64,000 nt of DNA from an uncultured Pelagibacteraceae bacterium (GCA_902594235.1 CACJLJ010000003.1:134526-198525), one strand, 5' to 3'; shown: positions 9,851 through 14,992, counted from the first letter of the stretch. The notes: a model not told the origin generated them from the sequence alone. Made by a program: numbers and translations.

Positions 9851-9904
9851 TGGTGGGCGAAGAGAGAATCGAACTCTCACTTCTTGCGAAACACGATTTT
9901 GAGT
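9851..9904 (-). pseudogene. 3' half of tRNA-Leu(CAA), cut at the anticodon loop
   Basis: Read on the minus strand this is loop ACTCAAAAT, anticodon-stem 3' side TCGTG, a variable arm TTTCGCAAGAAG, T arm GAGAG-TTCGATT-CTCTC, acceptor 3' side TTCGCCC, discriminator A and encoded CCA. The matching 5' half lies 5 kb away at 14953-14992. No sequence just inside the element provides a replacement 5' half: the stretch before the loop ends TTATCGT, which cannot pair with TCGTG as needed. The gene is therefore disrupted here. Confidence 0.93.
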
Positions 9905-9960
9905 ACGATAAGTCTTTCATTTACCTAATAAATCTTACGCAAATTACACATAAAATCTTT

Positions 9961-9981
9961 GTGTAAGAGTAGTGTAAGAGT
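9961..9981 (+). repeat. left pair of integrase arm-type repeats
   Basis: Two tandem copies of GTGTAAGAGT separated by one A (9961-9970, 9972-9981). The same doublet occurs in the same orientation at the right end (14878-14898), with the 22-base string TGTGTAAGAGTAGTGTAAGAGT-like identity limited to this motif and its flank. Single copies are at 10819-10828 (last base A) and, inverted, at 13387-13396. Tandem decamers next to both ends fit arm-type binding sites of a tyrosine integrase. Confidence 0.7.
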
Positions 9982-10313
9982 ATTCCTTTCTTTTATAAGT
10001 CTATTTTATACGCAACAGAAAATAAATTAAAAAAAAATATCAAATCCACCACTCTGCCTGTCTAAATAGTTATGTAATGATAAGTAATCTTACTTACTAT
10101 GCGTATGACTTAATTAAATAGTCATTTAAATAGTGTATTGAGACTGCTTCTTAAACAGACATTTATCGTTATATAATTTTTTTAGTACGACTTTGATAAC
10201 GCAGTTGAAATCAGAAACAAAATTATGAATGTCTGAAACAGATATATTTCAAAAGTCGCCTAAAAACGACCTATGTTAGAAATGTATCTAAACTAAAGAT
10301 ACGAAAGAAGACA
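9982..10313. other. noncoding left end of the element, candidate replication/regulatory region
   Basis: No ORF is supported in this stretch. It has AAGTAA-TC-TTACTT at 10082-10095, the separated inverted pair CAGACATT (10157-10164) and AATGTCTG (10228-10235), and a small GTCG/CGAC hairpin at 10255-10270. Lying directly before a Rep-like gene, it is the best place for a double-strand or nicking origin, but no known origin motif is recognised. Confidence 0.35.
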
Positions 10314-10769
10314 ATGAGTTCAAATGATAGAAAACAGATTAGAAATGCTTTTAATCTACTTAAAGATAATGACGAGAGTATTCACTTAAAAGACTACTTG
10401 ATAACAATGTGCCCAAATATAACTGAAACGAAATTTGATGATGAAGATATTTTGAAGAACAGAATACGAATGATAAATGCCATTGTTAACAGACGATTTT
10501 TGAAGAAAAAATATAAGACAAGAACAGACAGAATTATGTTTCACAATTTTATTGAAAATTCATATAATAAGAATTTGATACACACTCACTCTATAATCAG
10601 AATACCTAGATTTCTGCTAGAGAGAGTAAAAGAAGTCTTTAAATACCTGAAACATATAGTCGTAAATAAGTTCTATTTTAGTATCAGAATTACTAAAAGA
10701 CTTAATCGTGCGACCAGATATATGACGAAACACTACCACGAGAATAACGACCGATATTTCGTCAATTAG
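10314..10769 (+). CDS. putative small HUH-type Rep-like protein
   Basis: A 151-residue basic protein with no clear whole-length family that I can name. Three spaced elements recall HUH rolling-circle initiators: IMFHNFIE near 74-81 (position of motif 1), IHTHSIIRIP near 89-98 with His90 and His92 (motif 2, H-x-H), and RYMTKHY near 135-141 (motif 3, Y-x-x-K with Tyr136 and Lys139). The middle residue of H-x-H is Thr rather than bulky hydrophobic, so metal binding is not certain. Weak Shine-Dalgarno GAAAGAAG lies before the ATG. It is the first plus-strand gene of the element, behind the candidate origin region. Confidence 0.45.
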   Translation: MSSNDRKQIRNAFNLLKDNDESIHLKDYLITMCPNITETKFDDEDILKNRIRMINAIVNRRFLKKKYKTRTDRIMFHNFIENSYNKNLIHTHSIIRIPRFLLERVKEVFKYLKHIVVNKFYFSIRITKRLNRATRYMTKHYHENNDRYFVN

Positions 10770-10860
10770 TGAGTTGAGTACATATACTCATAAATATCAA
10801 TAACTCGTCTGTAGACTTGTGTAAGAGAGTTTAACAAGATGAAAAAAAAGAGAAATAGAT

Positions 10861-11010
10861 ATGAACCCAAAGATAAAAGAACTAATAAGAAAAATAGAGA
10901 CAGAAAAGAACACCTTAAAGAGATTGTCCTTGTTAGAAGAATTAGATGTACAAGTGACCATTTTAAGAAAAGAACAAGAAAAGAAATTTAAATTAGAAAG
11001 AAAACTATAA
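10861..11010 (+). CDS. 49-residue coiled-coil protein of the element
   Basis: Short gene whose TAA overlaps the next ATG (TAATG at 11008-11012), which supports translation by coupling. The product begins MNPKIKELIRKIETEK and is almost wholly Lys/Glu/Leu heptad-like, predicted to be one long helix or coiled coil. An arm-type repeat (10819-10828) and a GAGTA/TACTC hairpin (10776-10789) lie in the gap before it. Another 50-residue ORF overlaps in a different frame from 10839, but lacks the coupling. Confidence 0.6.
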   Translation: MNPKIKELIRKIETEKNTLKRLSLLEELDVQVTILRKEQEKKFKLERKL

Positions 11011-11375
11011 TGACTTTAATTCCAAGAAATGCTGAACAATTAAGACGAGTTGCTAGTTCGCATACAAAAAATTTAAAAAAACAAAATACTCAACCTGACT
11101 ATACAAATATATCAGATACAATGAAGATAGACATTGCGTCTATGAAGAAGTCTAAATTATATAAAGAGACAAAGAATTACCTATCGCAAGAAGTTGCTGA
11201 AGAAGAGTTAATGATGACTTTAAATCATTATTCACTTCACAATTATAGAGATAGAGTAATGTCGTTTATTGCTAAAATTACTCAACAACAACCAAGTGCT
11301 TTTACTATGCGTGTTCTTGCTGAATTTTTGAGTGATGTTTTAAACGAATACAACATAAAGAAAAATATAAAGTAA
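11010..11375 (+). CDS. hypothetical protein of the element, 121 residues
   Basis: Second gene of a three-gene plus-strand set (10861-11571). The N-terminal half is polar and basic (LIPRNAEQLRRVASSH), the C-terminal half helical (KNYLSQEVAEEELMMTLNHY, then SFIAKITQQQPSAF). No cysteines, signal peptide or catalytic motif stand out and I do not recognise the family. Its position between a coiled-coil peptide and a ribbon-helix-helix protein suggests replication or copy control, which is only a guess. Confidence 0.65.
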   Translation: MTLIPRNAEQLRRVASSHTKNLKKQNTQPDYTNISDTMKIDIASMKKSKLYKETKNYLSQEVAEEELMMTLNHYSLHNYRDRVMSFIAKITQQQPSAFTMRVLAEFLSDVLNEYNIKKNIK

Positions 11376-11385
11376 AGATAAGACA

Positions 11386-11571
11386 ATGAAAAGAAACTCC
11401 CAAAAAAAGAAAAATATAACGATTTGTGTTGACCCAGTTCAATACGAAATATTTAAAACTAGAAGAAGTAATAATCTTCAATCTGTATCGTCCTTCATTA
11501 ACTCACTTATTACTTGCTCAAATAAATCTATCATTGATGAGAGTAAGATTATGAATGTGATAAATAGTTAA
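11386..11571 (+). CDS. ribbon-helix-helix DNA-binding protein
   Basis: A 61-residue protein with the Arc/CopG layout: basic N terminus, beta strand NITICVDPVQYEIF, then two helices around NNLQSVSSFINSLIT. The strand and the SVSSFINSLI turn-helix match many CopG-type proteins (ITIRVDPELY...SVSSLINELI in typical members). Such proteins bind palindromic operators as dimers and often control plasmid copy number or antitoxin operons. No toxin gene is seen beside it. Likely the element's own regulator. Confidence 0.65.
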   Translation: MKRNSQKKKNITICVDPVQYEIFKTRRSNNLQSVSSFINSLITCSNKSIIDESKIMNVINS

Positions 11572-11585
11572 TGATTTAACATAAC

Positions 11586-11647
11586 GAGTGTGTGTGCTTC
11601 TATCATAAACTTTGTATCGTATCGTAAAGTTTTCAACACACACACTC
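11586..11647. terminator. large nested hairpin between convergent operons
   Basis: An 11-bp perfect outer stem, GAGTGTGTGTG (11586-11596) with CACACACACTC (11637-11647), encloses a 7-bp inner stem AAACTTT (11607-11613) with AAAGTTT (11626-11632). The inner loop is GTATCGTATCGT. It lies between the end of the plus-strand set and the end of the minus-strand lipoprotein gene. A bidirectional transcription stop is the simplest role, though no long T-tract follows; a DNA cruciform used in replication is another possibility. Confidence 0.6.
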
Positions 11648-11653
11648 ACTCAT

Positions 11654-12100
11654 TTAAGTGTCTAACTTGTATTCAATAACAATATAACTTCTATACTTTC
11701 CACCTTGTACAAAAGTTTTATCATAAACAATTTTGTATTGATTTAAATTAGTCTCAAATATTTGTGCTACTTCATTTGAAGTATAAGATTTATTGATACC
11801 AGACTTTGTATCTTCTTTAATAGTTTGACTTTCATTTTTAATTAACGAATTAGACAAACTATCACTTACTAAAACCTTTGCTTGTAAAAGTGCTTTAGAT
11901 TTTGCTAGTTCAAACGATTTGCTAGTAGAAGTACCGCAACCATAAATCTTGCTATCGCTACTTTTGTATTTACTACAAACTGCTTCATTAACTTTAAGAA
12001 AGTCCGACATATTGCTAATAGTAGTTTTATTCTTTGCTATATTGTTTGATGAACAACCAACAAGAACAAGACCGACTAATAAGACTAGAATAGTCCTCAT
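11654..12100 (-). CDS. LPP20-like lipoprotein of the element
   Basis: A 148-residue lipoprotein. The signal peptide ends in a lipobox LVGCSS, so Cys16 would be lipidated and the protein anchored in a membrane facing the periplasm. The body (YGCGTSTSKSFELAKSKALL and the final YRSYIVIEYKL) matches the LPP20-like domain seen in several envelope lipoproteins. A very strong Shine-Dalgarno sequence AAAGGGGG lies before the ATG. It is the last gene of the minus-strand set that begins with the serine recombinase. Surface modification or exclusion of competing phage is a plausible role for such cargo, without direct evidence. Confidence 0.75.
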   Translation of the reverse strand: MRTILVLLVGLVLVGCSSNNIAKNKTTISNMSDFLKVNEAVCSKYKSSDSKIYGCGTSTSKSFELAKSKALLQAKVLVSDSLSNSLIKNESQTIKEDTKSGINKSYTSNEVAQIFETNLNQYKIVYDKTFVQGGKYRSYIVIEYKLDT

Positions 12101-12114
12101 TTATTTACCCCCTT

Positions 12115-12354
12115 TCAAAGATTTTCTAAAATTCCCATAAACACCATAATTACCGAGTTTTGATACCTCTCATCAGTTAACCAAGTGACCAAGAAATTTT
12201 GTTTGTTAAGTGTTTCTGTTTCAGTACAAGACTTGATGATTTTTTCGCTAATTACTTTACCATTTTCAATAACTTGTTGTGTTTGATAAACGCAATTGTC
12301 TTCTGCCTTTGCTACTGAAATTAAAAATAGAAATATAAAAACAAATCTAATCAT
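12115..12354 (-). CDS. small exported protein of the element (79 residues)
   Basis: A signal peptide MIRFVFIFLFLISVAKA is followed by a short mature part with two Cys about 23 residues apart (NCVYQTQQVIENG ... IKSC), which could form a disulfide, and a hydrophobic C terminus (SVIMVFMGILENL). ATG 12352-12354 is chosen because AAAGG lies 9 bases before it; an ATG six codons upstream is also in frame. It overlaps the 3' end of the previous gene by 8 bases. Family unknown. Confidence 0.6.
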   Translation of the reverse strand: MIRFVFIFLFLISVAKAEDNCVYQTQQVIENGKVISEKIIKSCTETETLNKQNFLVTWLTDERYQNSVIMVFMGILENL

Positions 12355-12592
12355 AGATTTGCCTTTCAACATTCAACAATTCTTTTTGAAGTTTAGTACC
12401 TATCAATTTTAATAGTAGAATAGTCGCATAATCCGCCTCATTTTTAATGATTTTTGAACGACAATGACTATTACATTCAGAACTGAACATATGAGTAATT
12501 GTTGCCTCAAAATATGAAGTAGAACGACCAAATGCTACTGCTGTTGTTAATAGACAGAAACTAAAGAAAAGAATTGTTAACAATCTAAACAT
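12347..12592 (-). CDS. small exported protein of the element (81 residues)
   Basis: A signal peptide MFRLLTILFFSFCLLTTAVA precedes a mature part of about 60 residues with a C-x3-C pair (SECNSHCRSK) and a helical, Leu-rich C terminus. A Shine-Dalgarno AAAGGA lies before ATG 12590-12592; a GTG one codon earlier is an alternative. The start overlaps the 3' end of the recombinase gene by 8 bases, so the two are coupled. I do not recognise the family; together with the next two genes it forms a three-gene exported-protein cargo. Confidence 0.6.
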   Translation of the reverse strand: MFRLLTILFFSFCLLTTAVAFGRSTSYFEATITHMFSSECNSHCRSKIIKNEADYATILLLKLIGTKLQKELLNVERQIYD

Positions 12593-13295
12593 CACACATA
12601 TTCCTTTCTAACTCTATATTACAGATGTTTTTGATTAGTTGTTCTTCTCTATCTCTAGTTAAGAGTTTGTTAATAAAAGAGTAATGCCATTTTCTGCTAG
12701 TGTACTTTTCCATAAATGACTTAATCTCTTTATACTTTTTACCTTTTGCTCTTAACGATTTAACGAGATTGATTTCTTTTTGTTCTTTTTCACAAACAAC
12801 AAGTTGACCATTTTCACCCAAGTCATAACCTTTTCGTACTTTACCACCTGTGTACTTACCTTGTTTTTTGAGTTTATCTTTTGCTACTATTTGTTTTTCA
12901 GATAAAGACTTTCTGTACCATTCAGACATAATAGAAAGTATTTGATAGAAAACAGACCCAAGACTATCAGATGAAATAACATCTCCTAAATCAGTAAAGA
13001 TTAGTCTGATTTTAAGTCTTCTATATTTCTCAACATCATTAACTAACCCATAATGAGACCGAGAATATCTATCTAATGCTGAACAGATAATAGTATCGCC
13101 TTTTTTAAGTTTAGTAGTTAACAAACCACCTTGCTCTCTTTGATAGAGTAATAATCCACCAGAACACACATCTTCAAACCATTCGTTAACTCTTAAATTG
13201 TGAATATTACAATACGAGTTTATTTTAAACTTTTGTGTATCAAAAGAACTTGTACTACCTTCTTCACTAGACTTTCGTAAGTATCCATAAATCAT
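12585..13295 (-). CDS. serine recombinase (resolvase/invertase family)
   Basis: A 236-residue small serine recombinase. The catalytic region reads YLRKSSEEG at residues 5-13, with Arg7 and Ser9 in the positions of the YxRVST motif. SALDRYSRS (near 82-90) supplies the conserved Asp-Arg and Arg, and MSEWYRKSLSEKQ the long E helix. A short C-terminal DNA-binding region follows. Strong Shine-Dalgarno AAAGGAG. It heads the minus-strand cargo set, and an 8-bp inverted repeat (13315-13340) lies just upstream. Having it beside a tyrosine integrase suggests a separate job such as dimer resolution or inversion of a small segment. Confidence 0.88.
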   Translation of the reverse strand: MIYGYLRKSSEEGSTSSFDTQKFKINSYCNIHNLRVNEWFEDVCSGGLLLYQREQGGLLTTKLKKGDTIICSALDRYSRSHYGLVNDVEKYRRLKIRLIFTDLGDVISSDSLGSVFYQILSIMSEWYRKSLSEKQIVAKDKLKKQGKYTGGKVRKGYDLGENGQLVVCEKEQKEINLVKSLRAKGKKYKEIKSFMEKYTSRKWHYSFINKLLTRDREEQLIKNICNIELERNMCDV

Positions 13296-13314
13296 AAAAA
13301 ACTCCTTTCGTTTA

Positions 13315-13340
13315 TTTCATTGAGATACATCACAATGAAA
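13315..13340. promoter_or_regulatory. inverted repeat upstream of the serine recombinase
   Basis: TTTCATTG (13315-13322) and CAATGAAA (13333-13340) form a perfect 8-bp inverted repeat with a 10-base spacer, 20-45 bases before the recombinase ATG. It may be an operator, or the recombinase's own binding site, as res sites often lie in front of the resolvase gene. Confidence 0.45.
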
Positions 13341-13349
13341 ACGCTAACA

Positions 13350-13423
13350 AAAACCTAGTCCTAGTCAACCATTTGCTTGTATTGATACTCTTACACAATC
13401 CAATAGACAATTATGACTTACAC
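13350..13423. repeat. internal cluster of attachment-arm-like repeats
   Basis: This stretch reuses pieces of the element's right end: AAAACCTAG (13350-13358, also 14912-14920), an inverted arm-type decamer (13387-13396) and ACACAATCCAATAGA (13393-13407, 14 of 15 bases identical to 14848-14862). They lie on the 3' side of the internal tRNA-Leu. The order differs from the right end, so it looks like a relic of another attachment region captured with the tRNA. Confidence 0.5.
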
Positions 13424-13469
13424 AAAAAGAACGACAATTTAATGAATTTTTATGATTTTAAAGTGAGTG

Positions 13470-13552
13470 TGCGAGACGAGAGACTTGAACTCTCACCTAG
13501 TTGCCTAGACAGGATTTTGAGTCCTGCGTGTCTACCATTCCACCAGTCTCGC
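13470..13552 (-). tRNA. intact element-borne tRNA-Leu (anticodon CAA)
   Basis: An 83-nt class II tRNA. Acceptor GCGAGAC pairs with GTCTCGC, discriminator A; D arm GGTGGAATGGTAGAC; anticodon arm CAGGA-CTCAAAA-TCCTG; long variable arm CTAG-GCAA-CTAG; T arm GAGAG-TTCAAGT-CTCTC. All stems are perfect. No CCA is encoded (the next bases are CAC), unlike tRNA-Arg and the split tRNA-Leu of the host. It differs from the host copy in acceptor, anticodon stem and variable arm while keeping the same anticodon loop. It starts 21 bases after the integrase stop on the same strand, so it is probably cut out of the integrase transcript. Confidence 0.95.
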
Positions 13553-13573
13553 ATAAGTGTTTTTTAAAAAAAA

Positions 13574-14830
13574 TTAAGATACTGCTTTTAATTTACTTCG
13601 TCCAGTCTGTAACCAAACATCTAACATACTTTCTATTGCTGAATTTGCTGTATAGTTTCTATCAATCATAGTAGTTGAAGTACCACAATTCTTTGCTATT
13701 GCTGTTGAATTAACACCTTTATCTAACATCATTTGAATAAATGTATTTCTAAAAGACTTACTATCAATTGTAAGAACATCATCTCCTCTTTTGATAGTTT
13801 TTAATTTTGCCTCTTTAAGTAAAGAGTTAAGTCCTTCTCTAAATGAATTAACACCCCAAACTCTTCCTTTTAACTGACCAAGACCTGTTGTTTTATATAA
13901 AGTGATTAGTCGTTTGTATGCGAAATAAGAAGAAGAAACAGACTTACAATATCGTTCAGAAGTTTTAGACTTTCTAACCCATATTTTTAGATAGTACCTA
14001 GAGTTATCATCTAATCTAATTTCATTTAACATTGCTTGTTTAGACTTTTGCCTATCAACCAATTCAACATCTTCAAAGTGTAAGTTTAAACATTCATCAA
14101 CCCTTAAACCACTACCAACCATAAACACTATAAATTGATGTAATCGTTCTCTTTCAAATCTTATCCTTAAAGTACGACCAGATTGATACCTTTTCCTAGA
14201 GACAGATAGTAAATGATTATATTGTTCTTTAGTAAGACCTGCTCTTTTAGTCCTTTGTGACCTTAATTTTTTAGATAGTATTTTTGCTATATTCTCTAAC
14301 TTATCTTTTCTGATTTTGTTTTTATATGCCCAAGAAGTAAAACCAGAAATCGCCATTAAATCTCCTTTTAAAGTTTGACCTCTTAATACTTTTGATTGTG
14401 CTTTTGCTCTTGCTAATCGCCAAATGATAAATGTCTTTTGAATATCTGTTGCTGTTAAAGTCTCAACCTTACACTTCATAAACTCATTACATTTAGAGAT
14501 GTAATTCCATCTCTCTTTGTACCACTTCTTTGTTCGTTGCTCTATATCAGTTGAATTTTCAATATCAGATAAGAAACGATTGTATAAATCTTTAACAGAA
14601 TTTTGATGTATCTGAATATCGTGTTTCTTTTTAAAGTGTAATTCATCATACCATTTAAAAAGAATAGTTTTTGCCTTATTGAAGTTAGAAGTACCAGATG
14701 ATTTAATAGTTTGTTTAGATTGTATGTAAGTTCTGCCGACCCAATTATTAGACTTTAACTTACCTTTGTATTTGTCTGTACGAACATAGATGTGTAATTT
14801 ATTGTCTTTGAATGAGTGAATTTTGCCCAT
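13574..14830 (-). CDS. int: tyrosine recombinase / integrase
   Basis: A 418-residue phage-type integrase. Counting from ATG 14828-14830, an N-terminal arm-binding part is followed by a SAM-like core-binding domain (about 70-190) and a catalytic domain. Catalytic Arg243 is in VGSGLRVDECLNL, a Lys in KSKTSERY, the second Arg361 in SKSFRNTFIQ and the nucleophile Tyr393 in MIDRNY. The His before the second Arg is replaced by Lys and the next His/Trp position is Thr (CGTSTTMI), as in other GTS-type integrases. A GTG seven codons upstream is an alternative start. It lies next to the right end, its usual place, and should catalyse insertion in and excision from tRNA-Leu. Confidence 0.93.
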   Translation of the reverse strand: MGKIHSFKDNKLHIYVRTDKYKGKLKSNNWVGRTYIQSKQTIKSSGTSNFNKAKTILFKWYDELHFKKKHDIQIHQNSVKDLYNRFLSDIENSTDIEQRTKKWYKERWNYISKCNEFMKCKVETLTATDIQKTFIIWRLARAKAQSKVLRGQTLKGDLMAISGFTSWAYKNKIRKDKLENIAKILSKKLRSQRTKRAGLTKEQYNHLLSVSRKRYQSGRTLRIRFERERLHQFIVFMVGSGLRVDECLNLHFEDVELVDRQKSKQAMLNEIRLDDNSRYYLKIWVRKSKTSERYCKSVSSSYFAYKRLITLYKTTGLGQLKGRVWGVNSFREGLNSLLKEAKLKTIKRGDDVLTIDSKSFRNTFIQMMLDKGVNSTAIAKNCGTSTTMIDRNYTANSAIESMLDVWLQTGRSKLKAVS

Positions 14831-14877
14831 ATTTAAGTAAAAGTATAACACAATCTAATAGAAGAGTGTATTGATTT

Positions 14878-14898
14878 GTGTAAGAGTAGTGTAAGAGT
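14878..14898 (+). repeat. right pair of integrase arm-type repeats
   Basis: Tandem GTGTAAGAGT-A-GTGTAAGAGT (14878-14887, 14889-14898), identical and in the same orientation as the left pair at 9961-9981. They lie between the integrase start and the right core, about 55 bases from it, matching the distance at the left end (57 bases from the core). Confidence 0.7.
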
Positions 14899-14952
14899 GT
14901 GCGTATTGACTAAAACCTAGACCTGATTTGACTTATTTGAACGAAACGATAC

Positions 14953-14992
14953 ATTTTGAGTCGTGCGCGTCTACCAGTTCCGCCATTCGCCC
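14953..14992 (-). pseudogene. 5' half of tRNA-Leu(CAA), cut at the anticodon loop
   Basis: On the minus strand: acceptor GGGCGAA, D arm GGCGGAACTGGTAGAC, anticodon-stem 5' side CACGA, then loop ACTCAAAAT. After the loop the sequence continues TGTATCGTTTCG, which does not complete the stem. Its acceptor is perfectly complementary to TTCGCCC of the 3' half at 9851-9904, and CACGA to TCGTG, proving that the two were one gene. Confidence 0.93.

Follow-up and report, generated by a model that had tools for sequence, protein, structure and literature searches.

A 5-kb element in a SAR11-type genome that appears to integrate by tRNA replacement

What happens when a mobile element cuts through the anticodon loop of a bacterium's tRNA-Leu(CAA) gene? 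The question is raised by a 64,000-nucleotide stretch of DNA from an uncultured Pelagibacteraceae bacterium (hereafter the window; G000:C3:134526-198525), taken from a 1.19-Mb draft genome of 12 contigs that is 96.6% complete. Within the window, whose G+C content outside the element is 27.8%, a 5.05-kb element (9905-14952) breaks a host tRNA-Leu(CAA) at its anticodon loop and brings a whole tRNA-Leu(CAA) of its own. Comparative sequence analysis makes it very probable that this is a small integrative element working by tRNA replacement.

The interrupted tRNA gene and its empty site

Both halves of the host tRNA lie on the minus strand, the 5' half at 14992-14953 and the 3' half at 9904-9851, with the tRNA body of the latter at 9904-9855 and its CCA at 9853-9851. 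Once joined, the halves pair exactly in the acceptor stem (GGGCGAA/TTCGCCC) and the anticodon stem (CACGA/TCGTG). A first-pass annotation had described this split across 5 kb, and its coordinates proved correct to within 1 nt. The halves have only a 9-bp core in common, ATTTTGAGT, which corresponds to the anticodon loop plus its edges and lies on the minus strand at 14953-14961 (5'-half side) and 9896-9904 (3'-half side). Excluding the core, the 5' half occupies 14962-14992 and the 3' half with its CCA 9851-9895. One core copy plus 5,048 bp makes an insertion of 5,057 bp. The sequence of both ends bears out the earlier statement that the host tRNA is rebuilt at neither junction. ARAGORN and Rfam left the interrupted halves uncalled and identified the whole, diverged tRNA-Leu(CAA) that had been reported inside the element (13469/13470-13552; 57.3 bits). 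The core 9-mer alone is not rare (3 occurrences in the window versus 2.6 expected). A chance 9-mer match was nevertheless rejected as an explanation, because the joined tRNA occurs intact in relatives that have the empty site.

In these relatives, the 5' part at 14962-14992 joins 9855-9904 in an 85-nt tRNA, which is intact and 98-100% identical in 18/36 genomes (the first 36 same-genus genomes examined). The window flanks abut with an overlap of exactly 9 bp in four relatives (G012, G003, G034, and G009), and the empty site lies between the same neighbor genes in genera g6 and g7 as well. The insertion is thus demonstrated directly by the empty site, and the comparison with element-free SAR11 relatives that had been proposed finds the intact joined tRNA between the same genes. 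Two genomes that scored as further split sites were discarded: the CAA allele of G111 is intact but has different stems, and G363 was matched through a UAG tRNA.

The assembly contains 32 tRNAs (Rfam RF00005), with the leucine anticodons TAA, TAG, GAG, and CAA (ARAGORN), and its sole intact tRNA-Leu(CAA) is the element's copy. The first-pass annotation had named two observations that would speak against compensation by the internal tRNA. The first, another intact chromosomal tRNA-Leu(CAA), was not found among the 32 tRNAs of the assembly; the second, an internal tRNA at this site without an element, was not found in any relative among about 400 family genomes. At intact empty sites in other genera, native tRNA-Leu(CAA) genes give the next-best matches to the internal tRNA. 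The host tRNA query was matched in 94/97 sampled genus genomes that are at least 90% complete. Apparent second copies of tRNA-Leu(CAA) in G086, G134, G348, G537, and G569 were rejected, as the second matches are tRNA-Leu(UAG).

Full-length integrase was found in two more of 397 family genomes, G408 (an AG-920-D05 contig from the same genus) and G257 (an AG-349-F22 contig from another genus). Both elements interrupt the same tRNA between the same neighbors (an acyl-ligase side and a DedA/DsbB side), and each has its own tRNA-Leu(CAA). In both genomes, the host tRNA query matches two halves only, with no intact copy. The same insertion is therefore present in three genomes of two genera. In these carriers the element is 87-89% identical to that of the window, compared with 68-76% for the flanks, which indicates horizontal movement between species and genera. 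An assembly or binning artefact joining unrelated pieces is conceivable in a draft of 12 contigs; it is very improbable here, as identical junctions occur between the same host genes in three separate assemblies. Between the tRNA 5' half and the DedA gene, G257 has an additional stretch of about 2.2 kb (L091:8809-10984), with a BASS-type transporter-like and a regulator-like gene, that is absent from the other genomes compared.

The attachment site and the integrase-tRNA module

A fourth copy of the element was found on a 15.5-kb contig (L102; NHCX01000044.1) that consists of approximately three head-to-tail units, with a period of about 5064 bp, and contains no host DNA. The contig was binned as Verrucomicrobia TMED44, a label that is likely a binning error, with free element DNA being misbinned. 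Its unit junction, CATTTTGAGTACGATAAGTC, equals the attP obtained by closing the window element on itself, and the contig thus represents the free form of a relative with an intact attP. As this attP holds no piece of tRNA beyond the core, it provides direct evidence that such an element cannot rebuild the host gene.

Around the core, a 24-bp exact repeat, TTTGTGTAAGAGTAGTGTAAGAGT, which is absent from the first-pass annotation, occurs on the plus strand at 9958-9981 and 14875-14898. On each side the repeat lies 53-54 bp from the core, and it holds two TGTAAGAG motifs 11 bp apart. The repeats give the element an attP-like layout, with one putative arm-type site on either side. Versions of the repeat pair are found at corresponding places in G257, G408, and L102, in the same layout, and their sequences drift together with the integrase, a behavior that fits arm-type integrase sites. 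The core copies of G408 are unlike at their first base, which leaves an 8-bp common core, TTTTGAGT. The same anticodon loop, GACTCAAAAT, occurs in 35/35 host alleles, while the anticodon stems vary (CACGA and TTGGA, with CCGGA in the G257 host and CAGGA in genus g6). Near attP, a conserved stretch at 14900-14940 (GCGTATTGACTAAAACCTAGACCTGATTTGACTTATTT) is almost unchanged across the three integrated copies, and part of it recurs upstream of the serine recombinase gene (13347-13362). It could be a regulatory site or a replication origin.

These observations bear on whether the insertion is a dead remnant, that is, an old, fixed event in which a tRNA was captured once and the element is now immobile. 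The small number of carriers (3 among 397 family genomes) would fit such a history. However, the main reading frames are all open, the attL and attR cores and the arm sites are intact, the element is much more alike between genera than its flanks are, and a relative has a free tandem or circular copy with an intact attP. We regard a dead remnant as improbable.

The tyrosine recombinase (integrase) gene is located at 13574-14851 on the minus strand and encodes 425 amino acids, although translation may start at an ATG at 14830. The protein matches PF00589 (E = 1.3e-7) and phrog_216 (integrase) and is conserved in the relatives; no similarity to any phage record was found. The internal tRNA (13470-13552, minus strand), whose gene does not include the full CCA, begins 21 nt after the integrase stop codon, and the spacing is 20-21 nt in 4/4 copies. 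Every one of the four copies encodes the same isotype and anticodon as the tRNA at its target. Sequence differences among the four internal tRNAs affect every arm and spare only the tip of the acceptor stem. Even so, 98.9% of their cloverleaf cells are paired and 15/24 pairs have changed on both sides, a result matched by 0/500 shuffles; the number of such pairs was 7.5 for shuffled sequences and 0-3 for slid controls. Judged from this pattern of change, the kept pairing and compensatory substitutions show that the internal tRNAs are maintained under selection as tRNAs.

Comparison of the window with G408 gives 93-100% identity for most of the cargo and about 63-87% for the integrase, tRNA, and attachment arms. 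This joint divergence against a conserved cargo suggests that integrase, tRNA, and attachment site form one module that is exchanged by recombination. Because promoter and terminator scans returned nothing above shuffles, cotranscription of the integrase and tRNA is predicted only from their order and spacing.

In 3/4 internal tRNAs, the loops (TTTCAAAAA, TCTCAAGAA, and ATTCAAAAC) no longer match the core (compare ACTCAAAAT). Such altered loops would shield the replacement tRNA from the same integrase. The internal tRNA of the window retains the full 9-bp core at 13514-13522, and its anticodon stem-loop is the same as in the native genus g6 allele, so that the integrase might attack this tRNA as well. 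Either loop protection is not general or recognition extends beyond the loop. The only phage matches of this tRNA are to Gaia and its relative Nebkiss, at 77% identity, which could be explained by tRNA conservation alone.

It could be argued that the internal tRNA rides along by coincidence, like the tRNA genes of many phages. The genome also encodes tRNA-Leu(UAA), and E. coli tolerates the loss of leuX, its tRNA-Leu(CAA), the mutants being viable. We nonetheless consider this explanation unlikely. All four copies encode exactly the destroyed isotype and anticodon at the same place behind the integrase; compensatory changes have kept the tRNA through strong divergence; the host tRNA query is matched in the 94/97 sampled genus genomes given above; and integrase and tRNA differ together despite little difference in cargo.

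Under tRNA replacement, the tyrosine integrase would take a tRNA-free attP, in which two arm-site pairs flank an 8- to 9-bp core, and recombine it with the host's only tRNA-Leu(CAA) gene at the anticodon loop. Insertion would destroy the host gene, and the element's tRNA-Leu(CAA) behind the integrase would take over UUG decoding. The free element would be circular or concatemeric and would probably replicate through a candidate HUH-type replication initiator (Rep), with a serine recombinase perhaps resolving multimers (both are described below). Because the core is confined to the invariant anticodon loop, hosts with differing tRNA stems could be entered; because a whole tRNA is carried, the identical host 3' half that a rebuilding element would need could be dispensed with. 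Integrase activity, complementation, integrase-tRNA cotranscription, replication, and the transfer route are the steps that we infer in this scheme.

Several points weigh against it. A second tRNA-Leu(CAA) could conceivably sit in a gap of the 12-contig, 96.6%-complete assembly. The tRNA-Leu(UAA) of the genome might read UUG by wobble, and replacement could then be advantageous rather than vital. Evidence for the free form comes from one metagenome contig, which the assembly of a circle or of a tandem array could have produced. Finally, the assignment of the Rep is weak.

Gene content and route of transfer

The candidate Rep is a 151-amino-acid protein (10314-10769, plus strand) with an HxH motif at residues 90-92 and a YxxK motif at 136-139, both of which are invariant in four copies. 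In a predicted model (pLDDT 64), the order of strands and helices is compatible with an HUH Rep and the HxH motif falls within a strand. One homologue has a weak REP_ORF2-G2P match. A fold search with the model gave no significant match in the PDB and one significant viral match, which is unnamed; some viral Reps are among the weak matches. On this basis, a role as replication initiator is somewhat favored. No relaxase or conjugation genes were recognized among the element's open reading frames with Pfam and PHROGs, although a single-domain HUH relaxase could conceivably be present. Neither the Rep candidate nor the internal tRNA had relatives in a plasmid search.

Downstream of the internal tRNA on the minus strand is a serine recombinase of the resolvase/invertase type (12585-13295; 236 amino acids; PF00239, E = 3.2e-22). 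It is followed on the same strand by genes for an 82-amino-acid, probably exported protein with an N-terminal hydrophobic segment (12347-12595; conserved in 4/4 copies), an 85-amino-acid, probably exported protein (12115-12372; conserved in other copies), and a 148-amino-acid putative lipoprotein (11654-12100; weak match to phrog_23384 lipoprotein, E = 3e-4; 86-100% identical in other copies). Across carriers of different genera, the serine recombinase and these three small exported/lipoprotein genes (11654-13295) are 96-100% identical at the protein level, whereas the remainder diverges; this points to recent exchange of this cargo or to strong selection on it. The plus strand also encodes a 61-amino-acid protein that appears ribbon-helix-helix-like by eye (11386-11571; no family match) and a 121-amino-acid protein (11010-11375). 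PADLOC detected no defense genes in the element.

Integrase residues 1 to about 75 are 50-60% identical to a segment in the N-terminal region of an approximately 800-amino-acid PilM/PilN-type pilus assembly protein. This protein is widespread in SAR11 genomes (e.g., L099:875-3265, minus strand, and G000:C2:342306-342521 in the source genome itself). Integrase matches in about 50 genomes were consequently rejected as carriers, as they cover only the N-terminal domain within this protein. To find an arm-binding-like integrase domain on a type IV pilus protein, or a pilus protein domain on an integrase, is surprising, and it may be a sign that the pilus machinery touches DNA.

No virion, packaging, or repressor gene was recognized in the 5-kb element with Pfam and PHROGs. 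Together with the size of about 5 kb and the head-to-tail free copies (period of about 5064 bp), this leaves room for a phage satellite that moves as a concatemer in helper-phage particles, in which tRNA replacement would be one module. Similar-sized PICMI satellites are packaged as concatemers; these small marine integrative elements have circular or concatemeric free forms, carry int, alpA, and a primase gene, and insert next to fis (PMC10803314). However, no genes in common with PICMIs were seen. AlpA and primase were unmatched, only the integrase is common in kind, the site here is tRNA-Leu(CAA), and no tRNA replacement has been reported for PICMIs (PMC10803314). Viral and phage collections, including 2.9 million viral contigs, likewise contained no relatives of the element. 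A satellite lifestyle, which would be compatible with tRNA replacement, is thus possible but not favored.

Known systems and biological meaning

The mechanism is not unprecedented, as it corresponds to the tRNA-dependent lysogeny known since 2024 from actinobacteriophages (Guerrero-Bustamante & Hatfull 2024; PMC10865867). There too, a tyrosine integrase uses a core of ∼8 to 10 bp within a host tRNA that neither junction rebuilds. Phage Gaia, with an 8-bp core, shares both the target tRNA-Leu-CAA and a tRNA-Leu(caa) downstream of int, although at a distance of 286 nt rather than the 20-21 nt of the SAR11 element (PMC10865867). The window element has the short, non-rebuilding core in a host tRNA that is non-redundant in the 96.6%-complete assembly. 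In contrast, the actinobacteriophage carriers are complete temperate phages, while the carrier here, from SAR11-type Alphaproteobacteria, is 5 kb long and has no recognized virion, packaging, or repressor gene and no relatives among the phages and viral contigs searched.

Other systems share parts of this arrangement. In Sinorhizobium meliloti, prophages resembling Mesorhizobium phage vB_MloP_Lo5R7ANS substitute a foreign tRNA gene for that of the host on integration (PMC11476347, PMC12429752); these are likewise alphaproteobacterial but are full prophages. ICEMh1 is also a non-phage element that targets a UUG-reading tRNA, with the anticodon loop GATTCAAAATC as its direct repeat, and its authors too suggest that a loop target widens host range. 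Unlike the present element, ICEMh1 is an integrative and conjugative element of about 78 kb that rebuilds a functional tRNA at one junction and has no need of a replacement. In Caldiarchaeum, a complete tRNA and a fragment of a tRNA adjoin a recombinase element at a disrupted tRNA-Thr, but this case is archaeal and was proposed to reflect intron gain and tRNA splitting (PMC3293823). A literature search of open-licence papers found no SAR11 case of tRNA replacement.

To the known mechanism, the present element adds a 5-kb carrier, a streamlined SAR11 host, a tight integrase-tRNA-attachment module, and spread across genera, as well as an anticodon-loop core, the part of the target that is constant across divergent hosts. 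More tentatively, we envisage an approximately 5-kb family of SAR11 rolling-circle elements, either phage independent or satellites, in which the integrase-tRNA-attachment module is exchangeable, the core is limited to the loop, and 3/4 tRNAs escape it. If so, replacement by a tRNA with an altered loop would leave the cell with a tRNA beyond the reach of the same integrase.

tRNA replacement would thereby reach beyond large actinobacteriophages to a very small element in bacteria that are among the most abundant in the sea, and the compact integrase-tRNA cassette is a possible integration tool. Genomes of SAR11-type hosts keep few tRNA copies, and here a single-copy tRNA gene would be replaced horizontally in a streamlined genome. 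The findings also suggest why the strategy pays: an element that carries a whole tRNA needs the invariant loop alone and can cross genus borders.

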